NCBI RefSeq assembly: GCF_033097365.1
Contig: NZ_AP028461.1
Coordinates: 10,939,501 to 11,003,500, forward strand
Source: Actinoplanes sichuanensis
Lineage (GTDB): Bacteria; Actinomycetota; Actinomycetes; Mycobacteriales; Micromonosporaceae
Direction of reading: 5' to 3'
DNA: 64,000 nt
The position numbers and the translations under genes were made by a program. Below are positions 16,672-30,367 of this stretch, in pieces; position 1 is the first letter of the stretch; each line of letters starts with the position of its first letter. Under the pieces are notes generated by a model. That model had not been told where the DNA came from. It was given only the letters and a program-made list of their open reading frames with translations, and ran no database searches.

Positions 16672-18582
16672 ATGAGCGACTCCCCCTCGACCCCGGCCGG
16701 CCTGCTGACCAGCATCACCAATCCGGGTGATCTGAAGCGACTGACCGCGGAGCAGCTGACCCTGCTCGCGGCCGAGATCCGTGACTTCCTCGTCGCCAAG
16801 GTGTCGCGGACCGGGGGCCACCTCGGTCCCAACCTGGGTGTGGTCGAGATGACCCTGGCCATGCACCGGGTCTTCGACTCCCCGCGCGACAAGATCCTCT
16901 TCGACACCGGCCACCAGTCGTATGTCCACAAGATCGTGACCGGCCGGCAGGACGGCTTCGATCTGCTCCGCCAGCGTGGTGGCCTCACCGGCTACCCGAG
17001 CCAGGCGGAGAGCGAGCACGACCTGATCGAGAATTCGCACGCCTCCACCGCCCTGTCCTACGCCGACGGTCTGGCCAAGGCGTTCGCACTGCGCGGTGAG
17101 GACCGTCACGTGGTCGCGGTCGTCGGTGACGGCGCGCTGACCGGTGGCATGTGCTGGGAGGCGCTCAACAACATCGCGGCCACGCGCAACCGTCTGGTGA
17201 TCGTGGTCAACGACAACGGTCGCTCGTATGCGCCGACCATCGGCGGTCTCGCCGACCACCTGTCCACGCTGCGCCTCAACCCGGGTTACGAGAAGGTGCT
17301 CGACCTGGTCAAGGACGCGCTGGGCCAGACCCCGGTGGTGGGCAAGCCGGTCTTCGAGGTGCTGCACGCGGTCAAGAAGGGCATCAAGGACGCGGTCAGC
17401 CCGCAGCCGATGTTCGAGGACCTCGGCCTGAAATACATCGGGCCGGTGGACGGTCACGACCAGCAGGCCATGGAGTCGGCGCTGCGGCGGGCCAAGGGCT
17501 TCAACGCGCCCGTCATCGTGCACGCGGTGACCCGCAAGGGCTACGGCTACCGGCCGGCCGAGCAGGACGAGGCGGACTGCCTGCACGGCCCGGGCGCGTT
17601 CGACCCGCAGACCGGCGCGCTGACCGCCAAGCCGTCGCTGAAGTGGACCGCGGTCTTCGCCGACGAGCTGGTCCGGATCGCCGACGAGCGGCTGGACGTG
17701 GTGGGCATCACGGCCGCGATGGCCGAGCCGACCGGCATCGCCGAGCTGGCCAAGAAGTATCCGGAGCGCACCTACGACGTGGGCATCGCCGAGCAGCACG
17801 CCGCGACGTCGGCGGCCGGTCTCGCGATGGGCGGCCTGCACCCGGTGGTCGCGGTCTACGCCACCTTCCTGAACCGGGCTTTCGACCAGGTCCTGCTGGA
17901 CGTGGCGATGCACAACCTGCCGGTGACCTTCGTGCTGGACCGGGCCGGGATCACCGGGCCGGACGGGCCGAGTCACTACGGCATGTGGGACATGAGCGTC
18001 TTCGGTGTGGTGCCGGGGCTGCGGATCGCCGCGCCGCGTGACTCGGCGACGCTGCGTGAGGAGTTGCGCGAGGCGGTCGCGGTCGAGGACGGGCCGACGA
18101 TCGTGCGCTTCCCGACCGGCGCGGTCGCGCCGGACACCCCGGCGATCCGCCGGGTCGGCCAGGTGGACGTGCTCCGCGAGGGCGAAACCCAGGACATCCT
18201 GCTGGTCGCGGTGGGTTCGTTCGTCGGCCTCGCCCTGGAGGCGGCGGAGAAGATCACCGAGCAGGGGTACGGGGTGACCGTCGTCGACCCCCGCTGGGTC
18301 CGTCCGGTGCCGATCGAGCTGACCGGCCTGGCCGCCCAGCACTGGGCGGTCGTGACGCTGGAGGACGGGGTGCGGGCCGGCGGTGTCGGCGACGCGGTGG
18401 CGAGCGCCCTGCGGGACGCGGGTGTGTCCACGCCGCTGCGTGACTTCGGCGTGCCGGTGGGCTTCCACCCGCACGGCACCCGCGCCGAGATCCTCGCCTC
18501 GCTCGGCCTCACCTCGCAGGATGTGGCCCGCGAGGTGGTCGGGTTCGTGTCCCGTCTCGCGGAGCCTGACATCCGGGTCTGA
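16672..18582 (+). CDS. dxs: 1-deoxy-D-xylulose-5-phosphate synthase
   Basis: 636 residues, full length. Thiamine-diphosphate enzyme that condenses pyruvate and glyceraldehyde-3-phosphate, the entry step of the MEP isoprenoid pathway. Seen: [18 protein letters not shown], the ThDP/Mg site [31 protein letters not shown], the transketolase Pyr domain with DVGIAEQHA (catalytic Glu) and [15 protein letters not shown]. In mycobacteria too dxs lies in the sigA-hemE region. Probably translated from a leaderless mRNA. Confidence 0.97.
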
Positions 18583-18611
18583 GCCACTGGGCAACTTCGT
18601 TACTCAAAAGT

Positions 18612-18617
18612 TACCGT
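18612..18617 (+). promoter_or_regulatory. Leaderless -10 for the propeller operon
   Basis: TACCGT followed by 6 nt and the ATG at 18624. It gives the operon its own promoter only 42 nt after the dxs stop. Confidence 0.45.
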
Positions 18618-18623
18618 TGGCGG

Positions 18624-19940
18624 ATGGGTGCGGACACCGTCAGCGGGCCGATGGTCATCGACCTCGGCTACGACCGGGGTGAGCCGATCACGTACGACCG
18701 GCCGGGACGGCGCGCGATGCCGTCCTGGCTGGTGCCGGCCGTGGTCGCGGCGATGGTCCTCTTCTCGCTCACCGCGTCCGGGCCGCCGCCGCCCCCGCTG
18801 TTGGATGCGCTGACCCGGGTCGAGATCGGCTCCGGTGACCCGTACCTGGTGACCGGCACCGGCCAACTGGTGGTCCAGTCGGTCGGTGTGCTCGCCTCCT
18901 ACGATCTGGAGTCCGGCGACCTGCAGTGGCGGGTCGACCAGAAGGTCCCGGTCTACCGGCTGCGATCGGGTGACGGGCTCCTGCTGCTGCGCCCGTGGGG
19001 CGCCGGCAGCACCGAGCCGGGCACCACCGCGGTCGCCCTGGCGACCGGCGACCAGCGATGGCACAACACCCGCAGCGTGGTCGGCTTCGAGGGCACCGGG
19101 CTGGTGTTCTCGGTCGACGGCGTGCGCAGCCAGTCGTCCGGCACCGGCCGCCGGGTGGAGGGGGCCGTCGAGGCGCTCGACCGGGACACCGGGCGGCCCC
19201 GTTGGCGGGTCGAGGTGCCGTCGACCGCGGTCCTGCTGGCCGTGCCGGGCCCGGCCGGCGAGACGGCCCGGATGCTGGTGGTCCGCGACGACCTGCTCGC
19301 CCAGCTGTACGACGGGCGGACCGGCGTCCTGCTCGCCCAGCGGCCGGTGCCGGCCGCCAACTACGACCCGGACAACCCGCTGGTGGCCGGGGGAGTGATC
19401 CTGCTGCGGCACCCGGGGCCCTCCGGCATCGAGGTGTCCGCCTTCGACCCGGCCACACTGCGGCCGCTGTGGACCGCGCCGGCCGGCACCACCCGCGAGG
19501 TGCAGGCGTGTGGCCCGCTCGCCTGCCTGATCGGCCTGGACGGGGTGCGGGCCATCGACCCGGCCACCGGCGACCCGCGCTGGCACCGGCCCGGCTGGCG
19601 GTCGATCGAGACGATCGGGCGACGGTTGATCGCCTACGCGGACGGCCCGAAGTCACCGACCGCGCTGGTCGACCCGTCGACCGGCCGGGTGCTCGTCGAT
19701 CTGACCGGCTGGCGGCCGCTCGGCGGGGCCACCGCCGACGGGGACGTGCTGGTCACCCGGGAGATCGGGGCGGATCCGCGTACCATGGTCGCGGTCGCGG
19801 CCCCGCGCCTGTCCCGGCCGCGGGTGCTCGCCGAGTTGCCGGCCGGCACCGGGGAGTGCCAGTCCGCCCCGGAGCGACTGATCTGCCGGTCGATGTACGG
19901 CGAACTGGTCGTCTGGGCCTATCGGGCCGAGCCGGCGTGA
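18624..19940 (+). CDS. Membrane-anchored PQQ-like beta-propeller protein, paralog 1
   Basis: 438 residues. A cytosolic N-terminus containing MVIDLGYDRGEP, one membrane helix (about residues 35-52, WLVPAVVAAMVLFSLTA), a GPPPPP hinge, then a repeat-rich extracytoplasmic domain with successive beta-sheet blades such as VLASYDLESGDLQWRVD and VEALDRDTGRPRWRVE (the x-D-x-x-T-G-x-x-x-W pattern of PQQ-like propellers). Conserved cysteine pairs occur at ACGPLACLIG and near the end (GECQ...ICRS). No quinoprotein catalytic residues were recognised, so a binding or scaffold role is likelier than an enzyme. First of three tandem homologs leading into a two-component system. Confidence 0.85.
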   Translation: MGADTVSGPMVIDLGYDRGEPITYDRPGRRAMPSWLVPAVVAAMVLFSLTASGPPPPPLLDALTRVEIGSGDPYLVTGTGQLVVQSVGVLASYDLESGDLQWRVDQKVPVYRLRSGDGLLLLRPWGAGSTEPGTTAVALATGDQRWHNTRSVVGFEGTGLVFSVDGVRSQSSGTGRRVEGAVEALDRDTGRPRWRVEVPSTAVLLAVPGPAGETARMLVVRDDLLAQLYDGRTGVLLAQRPVPAANYDPDNPLVAGGVILLRHPGPSGIEVSAFDPATLRPLWTAPAGTTREVQACGPLACLIGLDGVRAIDPATGDPRWHRPGWRSIETIGRRLIAYADGPKSPTALVDPSTGRVLVDLTGWRPLGGATADGDVLVTREIGADPRTMVAVAAPRLSRPRVLAELPAGTGECQSAPERLICRSMYGELVVWAYRAEPA

Positions 19941-19959
19941 TCCTCAGGAAGGTTGTGGC

Positions 19960-21315
19960 GTGGCGCTGATCGAGCTGGATCTGGACGCCCCGCCCGATCG
20001 GATCGCCGGACGCCGTACCCCGCCCCCGTGGCGTTACCGCCACCTCGGCCTGGTCGTGGCGGTGCTCCTGGTGCTGGCCGCGGCCGGCGCGGCCCCGGCC
20101 GGTGGCACCTTCTGGCGTCCGCTCGGCCTGATCCCGGCCCCGCCCGGCGCCGAGTCCACGATCCAGATCGCCGGTGGCCGGGTGTTCACCATCGTGCTCG
20201 CCGGGCAGAGCCGCACCCTCACCGCGTGGGATCCGCAGCCGTCTCCGCACCGGCTGTGGAGTGCCGAGGTGCCGATCAGCGCCACCTTCGACCCGGCGAA
20301 GGGTGTGTTCGGCCCGATCCGGGTGCAGCGGATCGGCGGGCTGCTGCTGGTCGGCGCCGGGCTGTCCAGCACGGTCCTGGACCCGGACACCGGGGCGATC
20401 CGGTGGACCACCCCGAACCGGATCACCCCGGTGCCCGACGGCCTGGCCGTTCTCACCGACCGGATCTTCCGGCCCGGCACCCTCTACGACCAGGAGTCCG
20501 GCGATCCCGGGATGCTCTACTTCTCGGCCGACGGCCGGCCGCACGTGGAGCCGCCGGTCCGGACCGAGGTGCGCGGCCTCGACCTGGCCACCGGCGAGGT
20601 GCTGTGGACCGCCACGCCCGGCGGTTCGGTGACCGCCGAGGCGGCCCGCGGTGCCGGCCCGCCCGCGGTCCTGATCACCTCCTCCGACCGGTTGAGCCTG
20701 CGCGATGCCCGGACCGGCGCGGTGCTGCGCGAGACCGAGCTGCCCGAGGAGGCCGGTTCCGGTCCGGGCACCAGCGACGTGCTCGACGACGTGGCACTGA
20801 TCGGCTATCCGGAGGCCGGGCTCCAAGTGGGGTACGACGTACGGACCCTGGACCGGCTCTGGACCCGTGACCTGCACACCGAGGGGGAGCCGGACAACTG
20901 TGCGGGCCTGCTCTGCACCGGCGGCGACCGGGAGGTGCGGGTGCTGGACCGGCGCACCGGCAAGTCCGCCTGGTCGGCGCCGGCCACCGCCGCCCTGGCC
21001 GCCCGGGCCGGATCGGTGCTGATGAGCGGCCCGGACGGGGACGGCCCGGAGCTCCTCGTCGACGGTGTGACCGGGGCGCCGCGCGCCGACCTGTCCGGCT
21101 GGACCGGCGAGGTGGAGGGCTTCGACGCGCACGCCCTGCTGTTGTGGCGGGACGAGAAGGGCGGTGGCCGGGCGTTCGGGGCGGTGCTGCCCGGGGCCAC
21201 CGAGGTCAGGTATCTGGGGGCGGCCGACGGGCTGGGCGGGGACTGCGGTGGCGACGATCGATACGTAGTCTGTCGGGATGTCCGGGGTCTGCGGGTCTGG
21301 GCCTATCGGATCTGA
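19960..21315 (+). CDS. Membrane-anchored PQQ-like beta-propeller protein, paralog 2
   Basis: 451 residues. Same plan as its neighbours: ALIELDLDAPPD cytosolic start, basic stretch, one membrane helix (about 28-47), then propeller blades such as LDPDTGAIRWTTPN, LDLATGEVLWTATP and LDRRTGKSAWSAP. The two cysteine pairs are kept (NCAGLLCTGG; GDCGG...VVCRD) and the chain ends in LRVWAYRI. GTG start with AGGAAGG 7 nt upstream, 19 nt after paralog 1, so cotranscribed. Substrate or ligand unknown. Confidence 0.85.
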   Translation: MALIELDLDAPPDRIAGRRTPPPWRYRHLGLVVAVLLVLAAAGAAPAGGTFWRPLGLIPAPPGAESTIQIAGGRVFTIVLAGQSRTLTAWDPQPSPHRLWSAEVPISATFDPAKGVFGPIRVQRIGGLLLVGAGLSSTVLDPDTGAIRWTTPNRITPVPDGLAVLTDRIFRPGTLYDQESGDPGMLYFSADGRPHVEPPVRTEVRGLDLATGEVLWTATPGGSVTAEAARGAGPPAVLITSSDRLSLRDARTGAVLRETELPEEAGSGPGTSDVLDDVALIGYPEAGLQVGYDVRTLDRLWTRDLHTEGEPDNCAGLLCTGGDREVRVLDRRTGKSAWSAPATAALAARAGSVLMSGPDGDGPELLVDGVTGAPRADLSGWTGEVEGFDAHALLLWRDEKGGGRAFGAVLPGATEVRYLGAADGLGGDCGGDDRYVVCRDVRGLRVWAYRI

Positions 21316-21345
21316 GACCGGTACGGGCGCACATGGGGGCGGTAG

Positions 21346-22647
21346 TTGCGGGATGCCCTGATCGATCTCGGCGAGGTGCCGTCCGGGGAACCGGAGTCCG
21401 CGCTGCCACGGCCGCCGCTGCCGGCGTACCGCTGGATCCTCGGTCTTCTGACGGTCGTGCTGGCCGCGCTGCTCGGCGGCGCCGGACCACCGCCGCCCTC
21501 GACCGATCCGGTGTTCCTCCCGATCAACCTGGGTGACCGGATCCAGGTCGCCGGGGACCGGCTCTACGTCGCCGGGCTGGTCGGGCCGATCGGCACGGTG
21601 ATGCGGACCTACGCGATCCGGGCCTATCAGCTGCCCGAGGTGACGCCGCTCGGCGAATTCCAGGCCACCGTGCCCGGGGACATCTTCACCTTCTCCGCCA
21701 TCGGTGACGACCTGCTGCTCGTCGCCTTCAACGACGTGCAGTCCTCCGATTCCGGGCTGATGGCGGTCCGGGTGGGTGGCGGCGAGCCGCTGTGGAGGCG
21801 GACGGCGTCGCTCTACGGCCTCGATCAGCAGAGCGGCCTGACGCTGATCCAGGAGAACGTCACCTCGGACCGGTCGGTCTGGCGGGCCCTCGACGCGCGG
21901 ACCGGGGCCGTGCACTGGTCGCTCGAACAGCCGGGCAGCGACCAGGTGACGATGTCGACCGGCTCCTACTGGGCGGGTTATCCGGCGCGGCTCTTCTCGG
22001 TGCGCGACGACGGGCTGATCGAGGTGCGCGACGGGCGCACCGGCACGCTCACCGCGACCGCCCGGCTTCCGCGGCCACCCGGCCCGGACTTCGTGGCCTG
22101 GGCGACGGCCGGGCTGCTGGTCGCCGGGTACGGCACCGAGGAGACGATCGCCTACGACGAGCTGACCATGGCCGAGCGCTGGCGGCGTTCCGGCGAGGTG
22201 CTGCCGGATGCCGGCTTCCCGCAGGACTGCGGGCCGATGATCTGCCTGGCCGGGTTTCCGAGCGGCCTCAGCGTCGTGGACCCGGCCACCGGCCGTGAGG
22301 TGGCGCACTCCGACGGATTCGACACGGCCGAGGTGATCGGTGACCGGGTGCTGGTCGCCCAGGCCAGCCAGACCCAGCCGGAACTGGCCGTGTTAGACCC
22401 GCGGACCGGCCGGACCGCGATCGCCGGGCCGTGGGCCAGCGGCGGTCCCGGCCCGAAACCCGGCACCGCCTGGATCTACCGGCATCAGGCGGTCGGCTAC
22501 GCCCTGCGGTACGGGATCCTCGACCTCGCGACCGGCCGGGTGTGGCTGCGTGGGCGGGCCGAACGGATCGCCGGGGACTGCCGGTTCTCGACCGACGCGC
22601 TGGTCTGCCGGCGGTTGGATTCGTCGATCGCGATCTGGCGCCTCTGA
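21346..22647 (+). CDS. Membrane-anchored PQQ-like beta-propeller protein, paralog 3
   Basis: 433 residues. Begins RDALIDLGEVPSGEP, matching the other two N-termini, then one membrane helix (about 28-45), a GPPPP hinge and propeller blades (LDARTGAVHWSLEQ, VRDGRTGTLTATARL, LDLATGRVWLRG). Cysteine pairs DCGPMICLAG and GDCRF...LVCRR are conserved. The start is assigned to TTG 21346 because the shared ALIDLG block lies directly after it; the ribosome site (GGGGGCGG) is weak, so the exact start is uncertain. 32 nt before the response regulator. Confidence 0.8.
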   Translation: MRDALIDLGEVPSGEPESALPRPPLPAYRWILGLLTVVLAALLGGAGPPPPSTDPVFLPINLGDRIQVAGDRLYVAGLVGPIGTVMRTYAIRAYQLPEVTPLGEFQATVPGDIFTFSAIGDDLLLVAFNDVQSSDSGLMAVRVGGGEPLWRRTASLYGLDQQSGLTLIQENVTSDRSVWRALDARTGAVHWSLEQPGSDQVTMSTGSYWAGYPARLFSVRDDGLIEVRDGRTGTLTATARLPRPPGPDFVAWATAGLLVAGYGTEETIAYDELTMAERWRRSGEVLPDAGFPQDCGPMICLAGFPSGLSVVDPATGREVAHSDGFDTAEVIGDRVLVAQASQTQPELAVLDPRTGRTAIAGPWASGGPGPKPGTAWIYRHQAVGYALRYGILDLATGRVWLRGRAERIAGDCRFSTDALVCRRLDSSIAIWRL

Positions 22648-22679
22648 CGTAACCTGCACCTACGAGTGTGGAGGTCGCG

Positions 22680-23354
22680 GTGCGGGTGCTGGTGGTGGAA
22701 GACGAACGGGACATGGCCGATGCCATCGTCCGGGGGCTGCGCCGCAAGGGGATGGCGGTGGACGTCGCCTACGACGGCCTCGAGGGGCACGAGATGGCGT
22801 ATGTCACCAGGTATGACGTGGTCGTCCTCGACCGTGACCTGCCGGGCATGCACGGCGACGAGATCTGCGCCGCCCTGGTCGAGTCGGGTGCGCTGACCCG
22901 GGTGCTGATGCTGACCGCCAGCTCCTCGGTCGAGGACAAGGTGGAGGGCCTGGAGCTGGGCGCCGACGACTACCTGGCCAAGCCGTTCGACTTCAAGGAG
23001 CTGGTGGCCCGGGTGCAGGCCCTCGGCCGACGGGCCACCCCGGTCGCGCCACCGGTGCTGAGTGTCGGCAACCTGGTGCTGGACCAGTCGCGCCGGGTGG
23101 CGACCCGGGGTGGGGTGACGCTGGAGCTCACCAACAAGGAGTTCTGCGTCCTCGAGGAGCTGCTCAAGGCCAAGGGCGGCGTGGTGTCCAGCGAGGAGCT
23201 GCTGGAGCGGGTCTGGGACGCCAACACCGACCCGTTCACCACGACGGTCCGGGTGACCATCAACACGCTGCGCAAGAAGATCGGCGATCCACCGCTGATC
23301 GAGACCGTGGTGGGCGCCGGCTACCGGGTGCCCGAGCCGGTCGTGGCCTCGTGA
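22680..23354 (+). CDS. OmpR/PhoB-type response regulator
   Basis: 224 residues. Receiver domain with VVEDER (acidic pocket), phosphoacceptor Asp51 in VVLDRDLPG, and the LAKPF lysine; C-terminal winged helix (about 130-220, LELTNKEFCVLEELLKAKGGVVSSEELLERVW, then TVRVTINTLRKKIG). A DNA-binding transcription factor activated by the kinase encoded next. The GTG at 22680 has GGAGGT 5 nt upstream and gives the standard MRVLVVED start. Last-but-one gene of the propeller operon. Confidence 0.95.
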   Translation: MRVLVVEDERDMADAIVRGLRRKGMAVDVAYDGLEGHEMAYVTRYDVVVLDRDLPGMHGDEICAALVESGALTRVLMLTASSSVEDKVEGLELGADDYLAKPFDFKELVARVQALGRRATPVAPPVLSVGNLVLDQSRRVATRGGVTLELTNKEFCVLEELLKAKGGVVSSEELLERVWDANTDPFTTTVRVTINTLRKKIGDPPLIETVVGAGYRVPEPVVAS

Positions 23355-24571
23355 CCGTCTATCCCGGAATCCGTAGTCGCGGCCTGCGGTTCGACGTGCG
23401 GCCCACGCTGCGGCTGCGGCTCACCCTGCTCAACGGGATCCTGCTGGTCGGCGCCGGTGCGGTGCTGGTGCTGCTGGCCTGGCTGCTGGTCAGCGAGTCG
23501 CTGCATCCGGTCGACGCGCTCCAGCAGGGCTCGACGGTGACGCTGCGGGACGGGACCGCCGTCGAGGCGGTGGCCTGGCAGGACGACATGGTCGCGCAGG
23601 CCTCCCGGGAGTTGCTGATCAAGGGGTTCAGCGCGTTGGCCGCGGTCGGCATCGTCGGGATAGCGCTGGCCTACGCGGTGACCGGCCGGGCTCTGCGCCC
23701 GCTGCGTGACGTCACCCAGACCGCTCAGCGGCTCGGTGAGGAGACGCTCGACCAGCGGATCCGCTACTCCGGTGCGGACGGTGAGGTAGCCGAGCTGGCC
23801 CGCACGTTCGACGCGATGCTCGATCGGCTGGCGGCCGCGTTCGAGTCGCAGAAACGGTTCGTGGCGAACGCGTCGCACGAGTTGCGCACCCCGCTCGCGG
23901 TGATGCGGACCGAGATCGACGTGACGCTCAGCGACGACGAGGCCGATGTGGCCGAGTTCCGCCGGATGGCCAAGGTGGTCCGTAACGCCTCGGAACGGGC
24001 CAACGGCCTGGTCGACGCGCTGCTGGTGCTGGCCCGGTCGGAGGCGCAGTCGGGCCGCCGGCTGGTCCGCAAGGTGCCCGCCGATCTTTCGCTGAGCGTG
24101 CAGAACGCGCTGTCCGCGGTGAAGGCCGAGGCGGAGCGGCTGAAACTGGAGGTCACCACCGAGCTGGGGCCGGCTCCGGTGGTCGGTGACCCGAGTCTGC
24201 TGGACCGACTGGCCGGCAACCTCATCGAGAACGCGATCCGCTACAACCACCTGCTGGGCCGGCTGTGGTTGCGTACCGAGTCGTCGGGCGGCCGGGCCAT
24301 GCTGATCGTCGGCAACACCGGTTACGAGGTCGAGCCGGCCGATGTGCCGGGGCTGTTCGAGCCGTTCCGGCGGGGTGGCTGGGAACGGACCGGATCGAGG
24401 GGTTCGGGCCTGGGGCTGTCGATCGTGCGGGCGGTCTGTGACGCACACGGCGGCACGGTCCGTGCGGTGGCCCAGGAGGGCGGCGGGCTGGAGGTCACGG
24501 TGACCCTGCCGGCCGCCGACACGACGCCCGTGGTGGCCGGGGCTGCGAGCGTTCCCCGTATCCGGAACTGA
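23351..24571 (+). CDS. Sensor histidine kinase
   Basis: 406 residues. Two membrane helices (about 27-48 and 93-112) enclose a short extracytoplasmic loop of about 45 residues, too small for a classic sensor domain; HAMP follows (about 112-165). HisKA has the phosphoacceptor His176 in FVANASHELRTPLAV. The ATPase part has DRLAGNLIENAIRYN (N box), a G1 box reading GNTGYEV in place of the usual DxGxG (seen in some actinobacterial kinases) and GSGLGLSIVR. Overlaps the regulator gene by 4 nt, so they form one pair. The small loop suggests that signals may come through the neighbouring propeller proteins. Confidence 0.93.
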   Translation: MTVYPGIRSRGLRFDVRPTLRLRLTLLNGILLVGAGAVLVLLAWLLVSESLHPVDALQQGSTVTLRDGTAVEAVAWQDDMVAQASRELLIKGFSALAAVGIVGIALAYAVTGRALRPLRDVTQTAQRLGEETLDQRIRYSGADGEVAELARTFDAMLDRLAAAFESQKRFVANASHELRTPLAVMRTEIDVTLSDDEADVAEFRRMAKVVRNASERANGLVDALLVLARSEAQSGRRLVRKVPADLSLSVQNALSAVKAEAERLKLEVTTELGPAPVVGDPSLLDRLAGNLIENAIRYNHLLGRLWLRTESSGGRAMLIVGNTGYEVEPADVPGLFEPFRRGGWERTGSRGSGLGLSIVRAVCDAHGGTVRAVAQEGGGLEVTVTLPAADTTPVVAGAASVPRIRN

Positions 24572-24691: not shown

Positions 24692-25027
24692 ATGCGAATC
24701 ACGAACATCAGGGTCAGCCGGTCGATGGCTCGGATGGCCACAGTCGCCATGCTCGCCACCGGCGGCATCGGCATCGCCGCCGCGCCGGCCTTCGCCTTCC
24801 CGTCGGGGTGCTCCACCCCGGACATCGTCGATGACGGTGTGAAGGTCGGAGCCTACAGCAAGTGCACCGGTGGCACCGGCTCCCACCAGATCACCATCGC
24901 CTGCAAGGGCATCGCCGGGGTGAACTGGTTCACCGGTCCCTGGAAGAAGGTCGGGTCGATCTCCTCGAAGGAGTGCCCGCTCGGCACCAGCCTGTACTCG
25001 AAGTTCAACACGCTGTCCAGCACCTGA
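24692..25027 (+). CDS. Small secreted protein with four cysteines
   Basis: 111 residues. Clear signal peptide: basic MRITNIRVSRSMARM, a hydrophobic core and a likely AFA cleavage near residue 36. The mature part, about 75 residues, has four Cys (PSGCSTPD, YSKCTGG, IACKGI, KECPLG), probably two disulfides, and many Lys/Gly/Ser. No family recognised. GAGGGGAAC lies about 8 nt before the ATG. The upstream region is locally AT-rich, including a TATAGT at 24629-24634. A hairpin terminator follows, so it is its own unit. Confidence 0.75.
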   Translation: MRITNIRVSRSMARMATVAMLATGGIGIAAAPAFAFPSGCSTPDIVDDGVKVGAYSKCTGGTGSHQITIACKGIAGVNWFTGPWKKVGSISSKECPLGTSLYSKFNTLSST

Positions 25028-25085: not shown

Positions 25086-25868
25086 TCAGTTGGTCTTGGT
25101 CTTCGTCTCGATCTCGGCCCGCACCTTCGGGAACTCGGCCTGGATGTCCGGGGCCTTCTTGAAGAACCACATGACCATGCCGACGCTGCCCTCGTCGGCC
25201 CAGCCGCAGACCGCCACGTCGATGCCGGAGACCGAGCTGGTGCCGCACTGCGCGACCCCGCCCAGCGTGCCGGTGTCGGCCGGGGTCAGGCCGCTGACCG
25301 GGGCGTCCTTGCCGAACGTCTGGAACGAGGCGTCCAGCTCCTTCTGTGGGCTGGCGATCAGGGCCTTGGTGGCCAGCGCGGCGACCATGTCCTCCTTGTT
25401 CGGGTCGCCGTAGATGGCGCCGAACGAGCTCTCCGCCCCGGGGTACGCGGACAGGCTCTTCTCCATGTCCGCGGTGATCGCGGCGAACTCCTGGCTCTCC
25501 AGTTTCGGCCGGCCGCCGAGCGTCGCCGGTTCGGTGATGGTGACCGCGGCGAGGTCGTCGGCCGCGTTCTTGCCGACCAGGTAGAGCGCGGTGAACCCGC
25601 CGATGCAGAGGACCGCGACGATACCCAGCGAGATCAGGACGATCGGCAGGACCCGGGACTTGCGCGCGGGCGGCATCGGCGCCGGTGGGAAGCCTCCGAA
25701 ACCGGGCGGTGGCGGGGGCGCGCCGAACGGCTGCTGCGGAGGCTGCTGCCCGTACTGCTGCGGGGGCTGCTGCCCATACGGGGGTGGCTGCTGGCCGTAC
25801 TGCGGCTGCTGCCCGTATTGCGGCTGCTGCCCGTATTGAGGCTCACCCGGGTGAGGAGGGTACGTCAT
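25086..25868 (-). CDS. Membrane-anchored protein with Gln/Pro/Tyr-rich cytosolic tail (paralog of 29504-30367)
   Basis: 260 residues. The N-terminal 80 residues are low-complexity repeats of QYGQQP type ending in a Pro-rich stretch, then one membrane helix (about 85-108, VLPIVLISLGIVAVLCIGG) and an extracytoplasmic domain. The domain has ITEPATLGGRPKLESQEFAAI, a small internal YGDPNKEDMV block and a cysteine pair AQCG / VCGWADEGSVGMVMWF. The same blocks recur in the gene at 29504, so the two are paralogs. Function unknown. The ATG at 25868 is chosen because both paralogs begin MTYPPHPGE. Confidence 0.8.
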   Translation of the reverse strand: MTYPPHPGEPQYGQQPQYGQQPQYGQQPPPYGQQPPQQYGQQPPQQPFGAPPPPPGFGGFPPAPMPPARKSRVLPIVLISLGIVAVLCIGGFTALYLVGKNAADDLAAVTITEPATLGGRPKLESQEFAAITADMEKSLSAYPGAESSFGAIYGDPNKEDMVAALATKALIASPQKELDASFQTFGKDAPVSGLTPADTGTLGGVAQCGTSSVSGIDVAVCGWADEGSVGMVMWFFKKAPDIQAEFPKVRAEIETKTKTN

Positions 25869-25951
25869 CGATGCTCCAGAGCTTGTGATGTCGGAGGATC
25901 GTACCGGCGAAGCGGCGACCGCGATGACCTCTGACCGGGTGAAAACGAGAA

Positions 25952-25980
25952 GCCCCCGCACCTTCGCAAGGCGCGGGGGC
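25952..25980 (-). terminator. Terminator after fadB
   Basis: GCCCCCGC (25952-25959) with GCGGGGGC (25973-25980), with an inner CCTT/AAGG stem, followed on the minus strand by TTCTCGTTTTC. It lies 22 nt beyond the fadB stop. Confidence 0.85.
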
Positions 25981-26002
25981 ACTCGTTTGTGCACCATCTG
26001 CG

Positions 26003-28063
26003 TCAGGCGCGGACGTTCGCCACCCCGTCGGCCAGGAAGCGCTTGCCGGTCACCTTCTCCGCGGTGCCGCTGCGGTCCAGGTACGGCGTGACACCACCCA
26101 GGTGGAACGGGTACCCGGCGCCGAGGATCATGCACAGGTCGATGTCCTGTGCCTCCGCGACCACACCCTCGTCGAGCATGATCCGGATCTCCTCGGCCAG
26201 GCCGTCGAGCGCCTTCTGGCGTACCTCGTCGGCGGTCAGCGGAGCGTCGCCGACCTCCAGCAGCGCGATGACCTCGGGGTTGATCTCCTTGTCCACCATC
26301 ACCGGCAGTTTGGAGTCGACGATCCGCTTGAGGTTGGGGGAGTCCACGTACCGGTCCGGGAACGCGGCGTGCAGGGTCTCGCCCACGTGGTAGGCCACGG
26401 CCGGGCCGACCAGCTGGAGCAGGGCGATCGGGCGCATCGGCAGGCCCAGCGGGTCCATCGCCACGTTCACCACGTCCAGCGGGGTGCCCGCGTCGACGGC
26501 CTGGAAGATCTCGCTGGTGACCCGGGTCAGCAGGCGGTTGACCACGAACGCCGGAGCGTCCTTGACCAGCACCGACGACTTCTTCAGGGTCTTGCCGACC
26601 TCGAACGCGGTGGCCAGCGTGGCGTCGTCGGTCTTCTCGCCCCGGATGATCTCCAGCAGCGGGAGTACGGCGACCGGGTTGAAGAAGTGGAAGCCGACCA
26701 GCCGCTCCGGGTGCTCCAGATCGGCGGCCATCTCGGTGATCGACAGCGAACTGGTGTTGGTCGCGAGGATCGCCTCGGGCTTCACGATCTTCTCGAACTC
26801 GGCCCAGATCTGCTTCTTCAGGTCGAGGTTCTCGAAGACCGCCTCGATCACGAAGTCCGCGTCGGCGAAGACCGACTTGTCGACCGAGCCGCTGACCAGC
26901 AGTCGCAGCTTGGCGGCGGTGCCCTCGTCCATCCGCTTCTTGGCGACCAGCTTGTCGATCTCGGCGTGCACGTAGCCGACGCCCTTGTCGACGCGCTCCT
27001 GGTCGAGGTCGGTCAACACGACCGGCACCTGCAGGCGACGCAGGAACAGCAGAGCCAACTGCGAGGCCATCAGGCCGGCGCCGATGATGCCGACCTTGGT
27101 GACCTTGCGGGCCAGCGACTTGTCCGGGACACCGACCGGGCGCTTGGCCCGCCGCTGGACCAGGTCGAACGAGTACAGGCTGGCCCGGGACTCGTCGCCC
27201 AGGATCAGGTCGGCGAGGGCCTCGGTCTCGGCCGCCGTGCCGTCGGCGAAGGAGGCGGTCTTGGCCAGGGCCAGCAGCTCGACGGCCTTGTTGGCGGCCG
27301 GGACGGCGCCGTGCAGCTTCTCGTCCAGCATCGCCTTGACGAACTCCAGGACGCCGTCCCAGTCCTTGCGCTCGATCTCCGGGCGCTCCACCGTGACGTC
27401 ACCCTTGACCACACCGGCCGCCCAGGCCAGCGAGTCCTCCAGGAAGTCGGCCGCCTCGAAGAGGGCGTCGGCGACACCCATCTCCTTGGCCTGCTTCGGT
27501 CGCAGCTGCTTCTGGGTCAGCGGGTTCTGCAGGATGACCGTGGCGGCGTTGATGATGCCGATCAGGTTCGGCAGGATCTGCGAGCCGCCCCAGCCGGGGA
27601 TCAGGCCGATCGCGACCTCGGGCAGCGCCAGCGCGGCCGCGCCGGTCGAGACGGTGCGGTAGTGGCAGTGCAGCGCCACCTCGAGGCCGCCGCCCATGGC
27701 CGCGCCGTTGATGAACGCGAACGTCGGGATCTCGCTGTTCTTCAGACGAGCGAAGACCCGGTGGCCCAGCTCGCCCAGCGCGACCGCCTGCTCGCGGGAG
27801 TTGATCAGCGGCATGCCGGTGATGTCGGCGCCGACGCAGAAGATGTACGGCTTACCGGTGACCGCGATGAACGCCGGGTCCGCCTCGGTGGCCGTGGTGA
27901 TCGCCTCGTCCAGCGACTTCAGGCCGCCCGGGCCGAAGCTGTTCGGCTTCTTGTAGTCGAAGCCGTTGTCGAGGGTGATCAGTGCGGCCGGCTTGGCCAG
28001 CCCGGGTACCTGCACCAGGCGGACGATCGCCTTGGTGACTACCTCGTTCGGATTCTCGATCAC
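26003..28063 (-). CDS. fadB: Fatty-acid oxidation multienzyme: enoyl-CoA hydratase / 3-hydroxyacyl-CoA dehydrogenase
   Basis: 686 residues. The N-terminal crotonase domain (about 1-280) has the oxyanion-hole segments CVGADITGM and FINGAAMGGGLEVALHC. Next comes an NAD-binding 3-hydroxyacyl-CoA dehydrogenase domain with KVGIIGAGLMASQLA, ILATNTSSLSI and the catalytic-His HFFNPV motif, then two C-terminal helical domains. It hydrates trans-2-enoyl-CoA and oxidises the 3-hydroxy product during beta-oxidation. The GTG at 28063 overlaps the fadA stop by 4 nt, so it is coupled to the thiolase with which it forms the trifunctional complex. Confidence 0.95.
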   Translation of the reverse strand: MIENPNEVVTKAIVRLVQVPGLAKPAALITLDNGFDYKKPNSFGPGGLKSLDEAITTATEADPAFIAVTGKPYIFCVGADITGMPLINSREQAVALGELGHRVFARLKNSEIPTFAFINGAAMGGGLEVALHCHYRTVSTGAAALALPEVAIGLIPGWGGSQILPNLIGIINAATVILQNPLTQKQLRPKQAKEMGVADALFEAADFLEDSLAWAAGVVKGDVTVERPEIERKDWDGVLEFVKAMLDEKLHGAVPAANKAVELLALAKTASFADGTAAETEALADLILGDESRASLYSFDLVQRRAKRPVGVPDKSLARKVTKVGIIGAGLMASQLALLFLRRLQVPVVLTDLDQERVDKGVGYVHAEIDKLVAKKRMDEGTAAKLRLLVSGSVDKSVFADADFVIEAVFENLDLKKQIWAEFEKIVKPEAILATNTSSLSITEMAADLEHPERLVGFHFFNPVAVLPLLEIIRGEKTDDATLATAFEVGKTLKKSSVLVKDAPAFVVNRLLTRVTSEIFQAVDAGTPLDVVNVAMDPLGLPMRPIALLQLVGPAVAYHVGETLHAAFPDRYVDSPNLKRIVDSKLPVMVDKEINPEVIALLEVGDAPLTADEVRQKALDGLAEEIRIMLDEGVVAEAQDIDLCMILGAGYPFHLGGVTPYLDRSGTAEKVTGKRFLADGVANVRA

Positions 28064-29503: not shown

Positions 29504-30367
29504 ATGACGTACCCACCGCATCCCGGTGAGCACAACCCCGGCGGTTGGGGGCAGCCCCAGCCGCCGCAGTACCCGCATCAGCCCGACCCCACCCGGCCCT
29601 ACTCGGCGCCGCCCGCATACGACCCCAACCAGCCGTACGGTGCGAGCCCGCAGTACGGCCCGCCCGGCTACCCTCCGCCGTTCCCACCGCCGCAGCCACC
29701 GCGGAAGTCCACGAACACGCCCATCGTGATCGGTGTGGTGGCGCTCTTCCTGGTGCTCTGTGTCGGTGTCGTCACCTCGCTCTACCTGATCGGCAAGAAC
29801 GCCTCGGACGCCGACGACCTGGTCGACGCGTCGGGTGACAAGCGCACCGAGGCCACCGCCGAAGCCACCGCCGAGCCCACCATCGAAGCGACCACGCAGG
29901 CGCCCCGGGCCACCATCAAGATCACCGAGCCGGCCAAGCTCGGCGGGCGCCCCAAGCTCACCGGCGCGGAGTTCGAGGGCATCACCGAGGAGTTCCGGGC
30001 CGAGATCGCCTCCGACCCGACCGCCGGCGACTCGTTCGGAGCGTTCTACGGCGACCCGACCAAGGAGAACATCGTCATCGCGGTCGCCGTCGAGACCGAG
30101 GTACCGCTGCCCGGGGTGGCGCTCGGCGGGATCTTCAACGGCATCGGCAGTGGGGGACTCAAGGTCACCAACCTGACCGAGGCGAGCACCGGCAAGTTCG
30201 GCGGCGCGGCCAAGTGTGGCGACGCCGACGGCGACGGTGTGCCGGTGGCCATCTGCAGCTGGGCCGACGAGGGCAGCATCGGCATGATCATGTGGCACTC
30301 CAAGAAGGCCAAGCAGATCAAGGCCGAGTTCCCGAAACTGCGCGCCCAGATCGAGACCCGGAGCTGA
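29504..30367 (+). CDS. Membrane-anchored protein with Pro/Tyr-rich cytosolic tail (paralog of 25086-25868)
   Basis: 287 residues. Pro/Tyr-rich N-terminus (MTYPPHPGEHNPGG..., about 1-70), one membrane helix (about 75-98), a Thr/Glu/Ala linker (EATAEATAEPTIEATT), then the same extracytoplasmic domain as its paralog: ITEPAKLGGRPKLTGAEFEGI, GDSFGAFYGDPTKEN, and the cysteine pair AKCG / ICSWADEGSIGMIMW. The linker and an extra internal segment make it longer. Divergent from fadA and about 43% identical by eye in the C-terminal part to the paralog beyond fadB. Function unknown. Confidence 0.8.
   Translation: MTYPPHPGEHNPGGWGQPQPPQYPHQPDPTRPYSAPPAYDPNQPYGASPQYGPPGYPPPFPPPQPPRKSTNTPIVIGVVALFLVLCVGVVTSLYLIGKNASDADDLVDASGDKRTEATAEATAEPTIEATTQAPRATIKITEPAKLGGRPKLTGAEFEGITEEFRAEIASDPTAGDSFGAFYGDPTKENIVIAVAVETEVPLPGVALGGIFNGIGSGGLKVTNLTEASTGKFGGAAKCGDADGDGVPVAICSWADEGSIGMIMWHSKKAKQIKAEFPKLRAQIETRS

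Follow-up and report, generated by a model that had tools for sequence, protein, structure and literature searches.

A large number of histidine kinases are nearly devoid of an outer domain, which raises the question of what they sense. In the window analyzed here, a stretch of 64,000 nucleotides of the Actinoplanes sichuanensis chromosome (contig NZ_AP028461.1, positions 10,939,501 to 11,003,500 of the forward strand), a histidine kinase with a minimal outer loop is encoded together with its response regulator and three beta-propeller proteins, designated PropA, PropB and PropC, and the locus invites a comparison of whether these propellers may serve as the outer sensors of the kinase. The 12.1-Mb host chromosome belongs to the Actinoplanes group, whose named relatives are Actinoplanes and Paractinoplanes. 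The PropA-PropB-PropC-regulator-kinase arrangement is real and conserved beyond chance, as it recurs across genera, though these genera are related and not independent of one another. The best-supported reading, to which we assign a probability of about one half, is that C-type propellers, joined in Actinoplanes by A and B types, serve the kinase as outer subunits that act as sensors or modulators; within this reading we infer the contact between propeller and kinase, the signal and its direction, co-transcription of the genes and the binder of a direct repeat upstream of PropA.

Three anchored propellers precede a regulator and a minimal-loop kinase

The five genes lie on the same strand in the order propA, propB, propC, regulator, kinase and are tightly spaced (18624-24571), with gaps of 19 nt between PropA and PropB, 30 nt between PropB and PropC and 20 nt between PropC and the regulator, followed by a 4-nt overlap of the regulator and kinase reading frames (Table 1). 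The regulator probably starts at the GTG at 22680, read by eye as lying 3′ of a GGAGG, in which case the last gap is 32 nt. Across 31 Actinoplanes-group loci, the median spacing of adjacent genes of the set is 19 nt (120 gaps, including one outlier of 3213 nt). A promoter and terminator consensus scan returned nothing above shuffled sequences. The original prediction of three homologous anchored propellers directly 5′ of a coupled regulator and kinase is borne out by gene calls, BLASTP and hydropathy alike.

The propellers proved homologous in all three pairwise BLASTP comparisons (31% over 259 columns, E 9e-13; 30% over 400, 2e-26; 29% over 254, 8e-10). Each has a single hydrophobic helix by hydropathy, at residues 31-49 in PropA, 29-47 in PropB and 30-48 in PropC, and is predicted to be oriented with its short N-terminus inside and its C-terminus outside. 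The family has two hallmarks, the I(D/E)L(G) motif of the N-terminal block, present as VIDLG in PropA, LIELD in PropB and LIDLG in PropC, and two cysteine pairs (C296/C301 and C412/C421 in PropA, C314/C319 and C429/C438 in PropB, C295/C300 and C412/C421 in PropC), which probably form disulfides stapling the propeller. All four cysteines are kept in 91 of 91 aligned rows, and I12 and L14 in 87, the remaining four rows being gapped at those positions. Few positions of the protein are as well conserved as the I(D/E)LG motif, which stands as an unexplained cytoplasmic signal of its own.

All domains of the regulator (Response_reg, 95 bits; Trans_reg_C, 75.7 bits) and of the kinase (HAMP, 41.7; HisKA, 52.3, with H176; HATPase_c, 74.4 bits) score above the Pfam cut-offs, which identifies the pair as an OmpR-family two-component system, with the receiver aspartate D55 within DRDLPG when numbered from the 22668 start. 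VanR-O and a heavy-metal sensor kinase model lead the NCBIfam matches, both below their cut-offs, and the MtrA and MtrB models are not reached either (150.3 vs 300 bits for the regulator, 125.5 vs 450 for the kinase). Hydropathy places the kinase membrane helices at 29-47 and 88-106. The AlphaFold2 model of the kinase, of moderate quality (pLDDT 69.5, pTM 0.44), has a small beta-hairpin at 62-72 between helices at 18-50 and 73-130; together these give an outer loop of about 40 residues, in agreement with the very short extracytoplasmic loop of about 45 residues that had been predicted.

Conservation of the propeller-kinase linkage in Micromonosporaceae

At E ≤ 1e-60 the kinase has a match in 140 genomes of the family out of 150, and in 41 of 44 genera, and relatives of PropA are present at E ≤ 1e-20, a cut-off that passes over divergent members, in 54 of the 150 genomes. 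One kinase locus per genus was compared, the window and 38 further genera giving 39; g28 and g57, with best kinase matches of only ~1e-60 to 1e-71, were excluded from this sample. In 28 of the 39 genera, one to five same-strand propellers stand 5′ of the kinase that matches best (28 of 38 by script, with L058 entered by hand as zero), and in 22 a propeller directly abuts the regulator. An antisense C39-type peptidase gene lies between propeller and regulator in L064, L065, L068, L088 and L091, and the nearest propeller is inverted in L095. In six genera (L060, L066, L073, L076, L084 and L088) the propeller-regulator-kinase order is kept with no dxs upstream within the stretch examined; dxs is the presumed identity, judged from its sequence, of the gene 5′ of the set in the window.

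The examined stretch has no propeller in the other 11 genera, and a constant association of propeller and kinase, the check originally suggested, is not supported. A genome-wide profile search found clear family members elsewhere in three of these 11 genomes (G066, G076, G079), that of G066 lying ~9 kb upstream of the kinase locus on the same strand. Beyond the family, 16 of 296 genomes of the class have a match at E ≤ 1e-15, with five candidates scored per genome; three of the 16 are of the window's own family and contribute 10 matches of 109-529 bits, and the other 13 genomes reach 58-73 bits, so that outside the family this search returned partial PQQ-type matches only.

Some further features of these loci can be recorded here. 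Six genera have an antisense C39-like peptidase gene just 5′ of the regulator; it separates propeller and regulator in the five loci named above, the sixth being L089. At the usual place of the propeller, L067:6532-8133 encodes a protein that has no Pfam match; its glycine-rich start is kinase-like, and it also has a linker rich in proline and glutamine and a membrane helix. In G046, whose kinase has lost its loop, L187 encodes a propeller-like protein, perhaps a member of the family that has diverged.

Propeller subfamilies

A propeller tree was built by a quick method from 109 rows, with 37 of its 106 inner branches below 80 support or drawn open. The sampled Actinoplanes A, B and C copies are each monophyletic, with support of 99, 100 and 94, respectively; C joins the kinase-linked copies of other genera, with support of 99 with one genus and 90-94 for wider sets. 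This argues that A, B and C are separate subfamilies predating the Actinoplanes group, and a recent triplication of the propeller is rejected by the tree. Subfamily profiles were applied to 13 chosen genomes of g48, g27 and g20, in which 16 of 42 matches adjoin the kinase and 26 lie elsewhere. Thirty loci were typed, 12 of the matches not being treated as loci of their own: all 15 kinase-linked loci were C, and the 15 unlinked loci were A (7) or B (8).

Propellers away from the kinase

A set of 20 unlinked loci, selected for lying away from the kinase, lacks both the regulator and the kinase family, the weak matches in L124, L125, L128 and L134 being of at most 46 bits. The propeller segments at these loci carry I(D/E)L in 28 of 29 cases, CX4-5C in 29 of 29 and CX8C in 28 of 29, and the N-terminal motif was accordingly rejected as a mark of kinase-linked copies. 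Several of the places are conserved. In seven Actinoplanes loci (L118-L123 and L127) one to three propellers stand directly 3′ of a GGDEF gene and convergent to prfA, in three genomes of g48 (L135-L137) a PP2C phosphatase gene is followed by B-type propellers, and at three loci a propeller stands ahead of a semialdehyde dehydrogenase gene. Neighbor domains were assigned by Pfam on L121 (GGDEF), L137 (PP2C) and L129 (semialdehyde dehydrogenase), and at the other loci through similarity clusters. Homologs without the kinase beside them, which the original prediction would have counted against itself, are thus many (26 of the 42 matches above and the 20 loci here, in genomes and loci that were chosen), and in part they do tell against it.

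A broader proposal, which we consider unlikely, is that these proteins form a new class of one-helix receptors, in each of which a disulfide-stapled and probably nine-bladed outer propeller is linked by its membrane helix to a highly conserved I(D/E)LG peptide that serves for docking in the cytoplasm. There it would bind an inner partner shared by all of them, and outputs would differ by subfamily, C acting on the two-component kinase and the others on GGDEF or PP2C proteins.

Proposed function and points against it

If the propellers are sensor subunits, the locus would encode an envelope-sensing multi-component system in which a two-helix kinase with about 40 outer residues shares its membrane with one to five single-pass propellers, the propeller lying outside and the I(D/E)LG peptide inside. 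The propeller, probably stapled by its disulfides, would sense the state of the envelope or a ligand and would set the activity of the kinase via its own helix or the outer hairpin of the kinase, which would then phosphorylate the receiver aspartate of the regulator. The C subfamily would be the likeliest direct partner of the kinase, with A and B as further inputs kept in the set by Actinoplanes, and the repeat 5′ of PropA in Actinoplanes may add a second control by an OmpR-type regulator, either MtrA or that of the set. Here an antibiotic-producer-rich family carries a defined candidate sensor beside a minimal-loop kinase, and natural variants, with zero to five copies at the kinase locus and subfamilies clustered or dispersed, make the accessory-sensor idea directly testable.

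Several observations weigh against the sensor role. The N-terminal motif, given its presence in the unlinked segments, is unspecific for this kinase. In genera more distant than the three typed, the assignment of linked copies to C is less clean, as both linked copies of L071 fall on the A and B sides of the tree. Four Actinoplanes-group loci (L101, L103, L111, L116) have no intact C, L114 carries a second B in its place, and the kinase-linked copy in G075 is without the CX8C pattern. Seven kinase genomes (G040, G043, G046, G051, G065, G069, G074) have matches of at most 91 bits, none of those checked bearing both hallmarks: the 91-bit, near-full-length match in G040 has a C-terminal CX8C as its only hallmark feature, and a 49-bit match in G046 has an IELG motif and no cysteine pairs. 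G077, a fragmented assembly, has a similar weak match.

The outer loop of the kinase is kept in most of the family and is lost or mostly lost in 10 of the 39 loci. Five of these 10 have an adjacent propeller (L059, L076, L077, L078 and L085) and the other five have none; the loop is also present in G040, G051 and G074, where no checked match bears both hallmarks. Loops and propellers are not significantly associated (Fisher p 0.057, hand-entered counts), and the association would be weakened further if G077 were treated as propeller-less. A related loop occurs in the kinase of L138, a locus of another family in which dxs is a near neighbor of the regulator and kinase and one open reading frame (ORF) intervenes on the opposite strand, in a single outgroup genome without a propeller match (E ≤ 1e-8). 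The loop is therefore no obligatory dock for the propeller, its occurrence and that of the propeller being mismatched both ways. As originally proposed, the role of the propellers as external sensors gains from the tight set, the tiny loop and the 28 of 39 genera, and loses from the many unlinked propellers and the kinase genomes without clear members.

A conserved direct repeat upstream of PropA

All 31 Actinoplanes-group loci examined (30 distinct, since L052 and L104 are on the same contig) have the direct repeat GTTAy-N6-GTTAy just 5′ of the PropA start, within the dxs-PropA gap in 29 and overlapping the dxs stop in two. Letter shuffling over 200 rounds gave no such repeat, and exact matches to GTTAYN6GTTAY number 15 in the 12.1-Mb genome vs 5 for the reversed pattern; the remaining 14 matches, examined by eye, showed no evident regulon. 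The layout resembles that of the Streptomyces coelicolor MtrA repeat (PMC5650626). Compared with the A. deccanensis MtrA consensus of 20 positions, the repeat in the window agrees at only 12, a level that unrelated stretches also reach (12 and 13 in L050 and L098), and the repeats of some relatives agree at up to 19. An 11-bp repeat can be used by any OmpR-type regulator, so the regulator of the set is a rival binder, and both it and MtrA are possible candidates. A CutR-type binder was rejected, as CutR has a different motif, TAWATAAA. Separately, GTTACTCACGTGTTAC occurs in five copies in G000 (L166-L169 and L171, around position 1501) with no called gene close by; these copies are perhaps rRNA operon leaders.

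Alternative explanations

The propellers might instead be outputs, BamB-like scaffolds or binders in the envelope that are controlled by the regulator or by MtrA and are thus co-regulated neighbors of the kinase. This is possible, though doubtful. It would account for propellers that are common away from the kinase at conserved places (beside GGDEF and prfA, PP2C or semialdehyde dehydrogenase genes), for kinases in genomes without clear family members and for the conserved repeat of MtrA-box layout 5′ of PropA. However, the propellers head one tight co-directional set and stay with the regulator and kinase where no dxs is upstream, an output gene could just as well lie in trans, and in the three genera typed a single subfamily accounts for the kinase-linked loci.

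It is decidedly unlikely that the neighborhood is simply inherited, the propellers having joined an old dxs-regulator-kinase locus and been retained through slow rearrangement with no functional tie. Loci with dxs 5′ of the regulator and kinase and no propeller do exist (L061, L063, L079, L082, L087, L092 and, in another family, L138), and the relatedness of the genera points the same way; against this, the six genera named above keep propeller, regulator and kinase without an upstream dxs in the stretch examined, and anywhere from 0 to 5 propellers occur at the locus.

Fold and comparison with known systems

PropA and PropB match PQQ_2 (PF13360) with 51.5 and 39.4 bits, above the Pfam gathering score of 27.6, and PropC remains below it at 24.3. 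The AlphaFold2 model of PropA (pLDDT 90.9) contains a propeller with probably nine blades. In Foldseek, its leading matches are BamB, eIF2A and designed propellers, with quinoproteins and hydrolases ranking lower, and quinoproteins of the PDB are among its sequence-profile matches. That the propellers are PQQ-dependent or other enzymes is very improbable: the PQQ_2 and profile matches would favor quinoproteins, but TIGR03075 scores 10.9 bits in PropA against a cut-off of 480 and gives no row in PropB or PropC, and the leading fold matches are of other kinds. BamB provides the best Foldseek matches (E 5e-14, TMq ~0.4-0.45) and a sequence-profile match of 57 bits, but its model TIGR03300 is not reached (PropA 26.7 and PropB 13.8 vs 285.2, PropC no row). 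BamB is an eight-bladed lipoprotein that acts in outer membrane protein assembly, whereas the propeller here is modeled with probably nine blades.

LpqB is a propeller lipoprotein, but no lipobox cysteine was found in PropA, PropB or PropC, whose first cysteines are at 296, 314 and 295. In MtrAB-LpqB of actinobacteria, as here, an OmpR-type regulator, a HAMP kinase and an extracytoplasmic propeller are encoded together. The LpqB gene lies 3′ of mtrB, whereas here one to five helix-anchored propellers lie 5′ of the regulator and kinase. PF10647, which we take to be the LpqB domain, gave no row at E ≤ 1 in PropA, PropB or PropC in a Pfam search, and its only match in this genome (C1:8569935, 55.5 bits) adjoins MtrB (C1:8571683, 669 bits), far from the window. 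Because these two genes lie together elsewhere in the same genome, LpqB is, by sequence comparison, an analogue of the three propellers and not a relative. MtrAB-LpqB is sometimes termed a three-component system (PMC10714768).

Among the studied systems considered, CutRS of Streptomyces (with CssRS) comes closest to the kinase, whose best matches there are L148 and L149 (252 and 250 bits); we take these to be Streptomyces loci in the cutRS neighborhood. Orthology was rejected, since in a reciprocal test with one Streptomyces-type query against this genome the L149 kinase best matched another kinase (325 bits), ours being third (245 bits). CutS senses the outer disulfide state via two outer cysteines (PMC12802291), whereas here the outer loop has no cysteine (the sole cysteine of the kinase is at 363) and the conserved outer cysteine pairs are on the propellers. 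By analogy, these cysteines invite, but do not show, a CutS-like disulfide signal.

Separate proteins are known to modulate actinobacterial kinases in HbpS-SenS-SenR (PMC4991794) and TapA-MtrB (PMC12338722), although neither HbpS nor TapA figures as a family of tandem beta-propellers in the passages of these reports consulted. The arrangement can be viewed as a variant of such accessory-protein two-component systems, so far undescribed in the literature searched: in agreement with the original prediction, no report of this layout was recognized in the open-licence PMC literature, covered mostly as titles and the beginnings of abstracts.

Feature coordinates and neighboring genes

Table 1 Features of the locus in the window and of related loci (related loci prefixed by their labels)
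Feature	Position	Strand	Description and basis
dxs (presumed)	16672..18582	+	1-deoxy-xylulose-5-phosphate synthase, name presumed from sequence; gene call, gene order
Direct repeat GTTAC-N6-GTTAC	18599..18614	+	3′ end 9 nt ahead of PropA ATG
PropA	18624..19940	+	438 aa, ATG start; helix-anchored beta-propeller, subfamily A (tree)
PropB	19960..21315	+	451 aa, GTG start; PropA-like architecture, subfamily B (tree)
PropC	21346..22647	+	433 aa, TTG start; PropA-like architecture, subfamily C (tree)
Response regulator	22668..23354	+	OmpR/PhoB type, receiver and winged helix; Pfam
Histidine kinase	23351..24571	+	TM-short loop-TM (TM, transmembrane helix), HAMP, HisKA, HATPase_c; Pfam, hydropathy, AlphaFold2
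Propellers after GGDEF gene (example)	L121:4943-9132
B-type propellers after PP2C gene (example)	L137:6059-8269
Antisense C39-like peptidase gene	L064:6997-8187
Antisense C39-like peptidase gene	L065:7045-8220
Antisense C39-like peptidase gene	L068:7064-8242
Antisense C39-like peptidase gene	L088:7197-8264
Antisense C39-like peptidase gene	L089:6755-8053
Antisense C39-like peptidase gene	L091:7115-8371

Upstream of the set lie genes presumed from their sequences to encode RlmD, FolD and Dxs; dxs is probably a conserved 5′ neighbor outside the signaling unit. On the 3′ side, a gene for a small secreted-looking protein is followed on the opposite strand by what we take to be fadB and fadA. The former is an ORF at 24734-25027 (+), directly 3′ of the kinase and with a start probably further upstream, which has no Pfam match and no labeled counterpart in the gene orders compared at the other loci. 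Flanking fadB-fadA in opposite orientations are two ORFs, at 25086-26135 (-) and 29504-30367 (+), which by eye look homologous and share the stretches MTYPPHPGE, ITEPA.LGGRPKL and C.WADEGS.GM.MW as well as a membrane helix.

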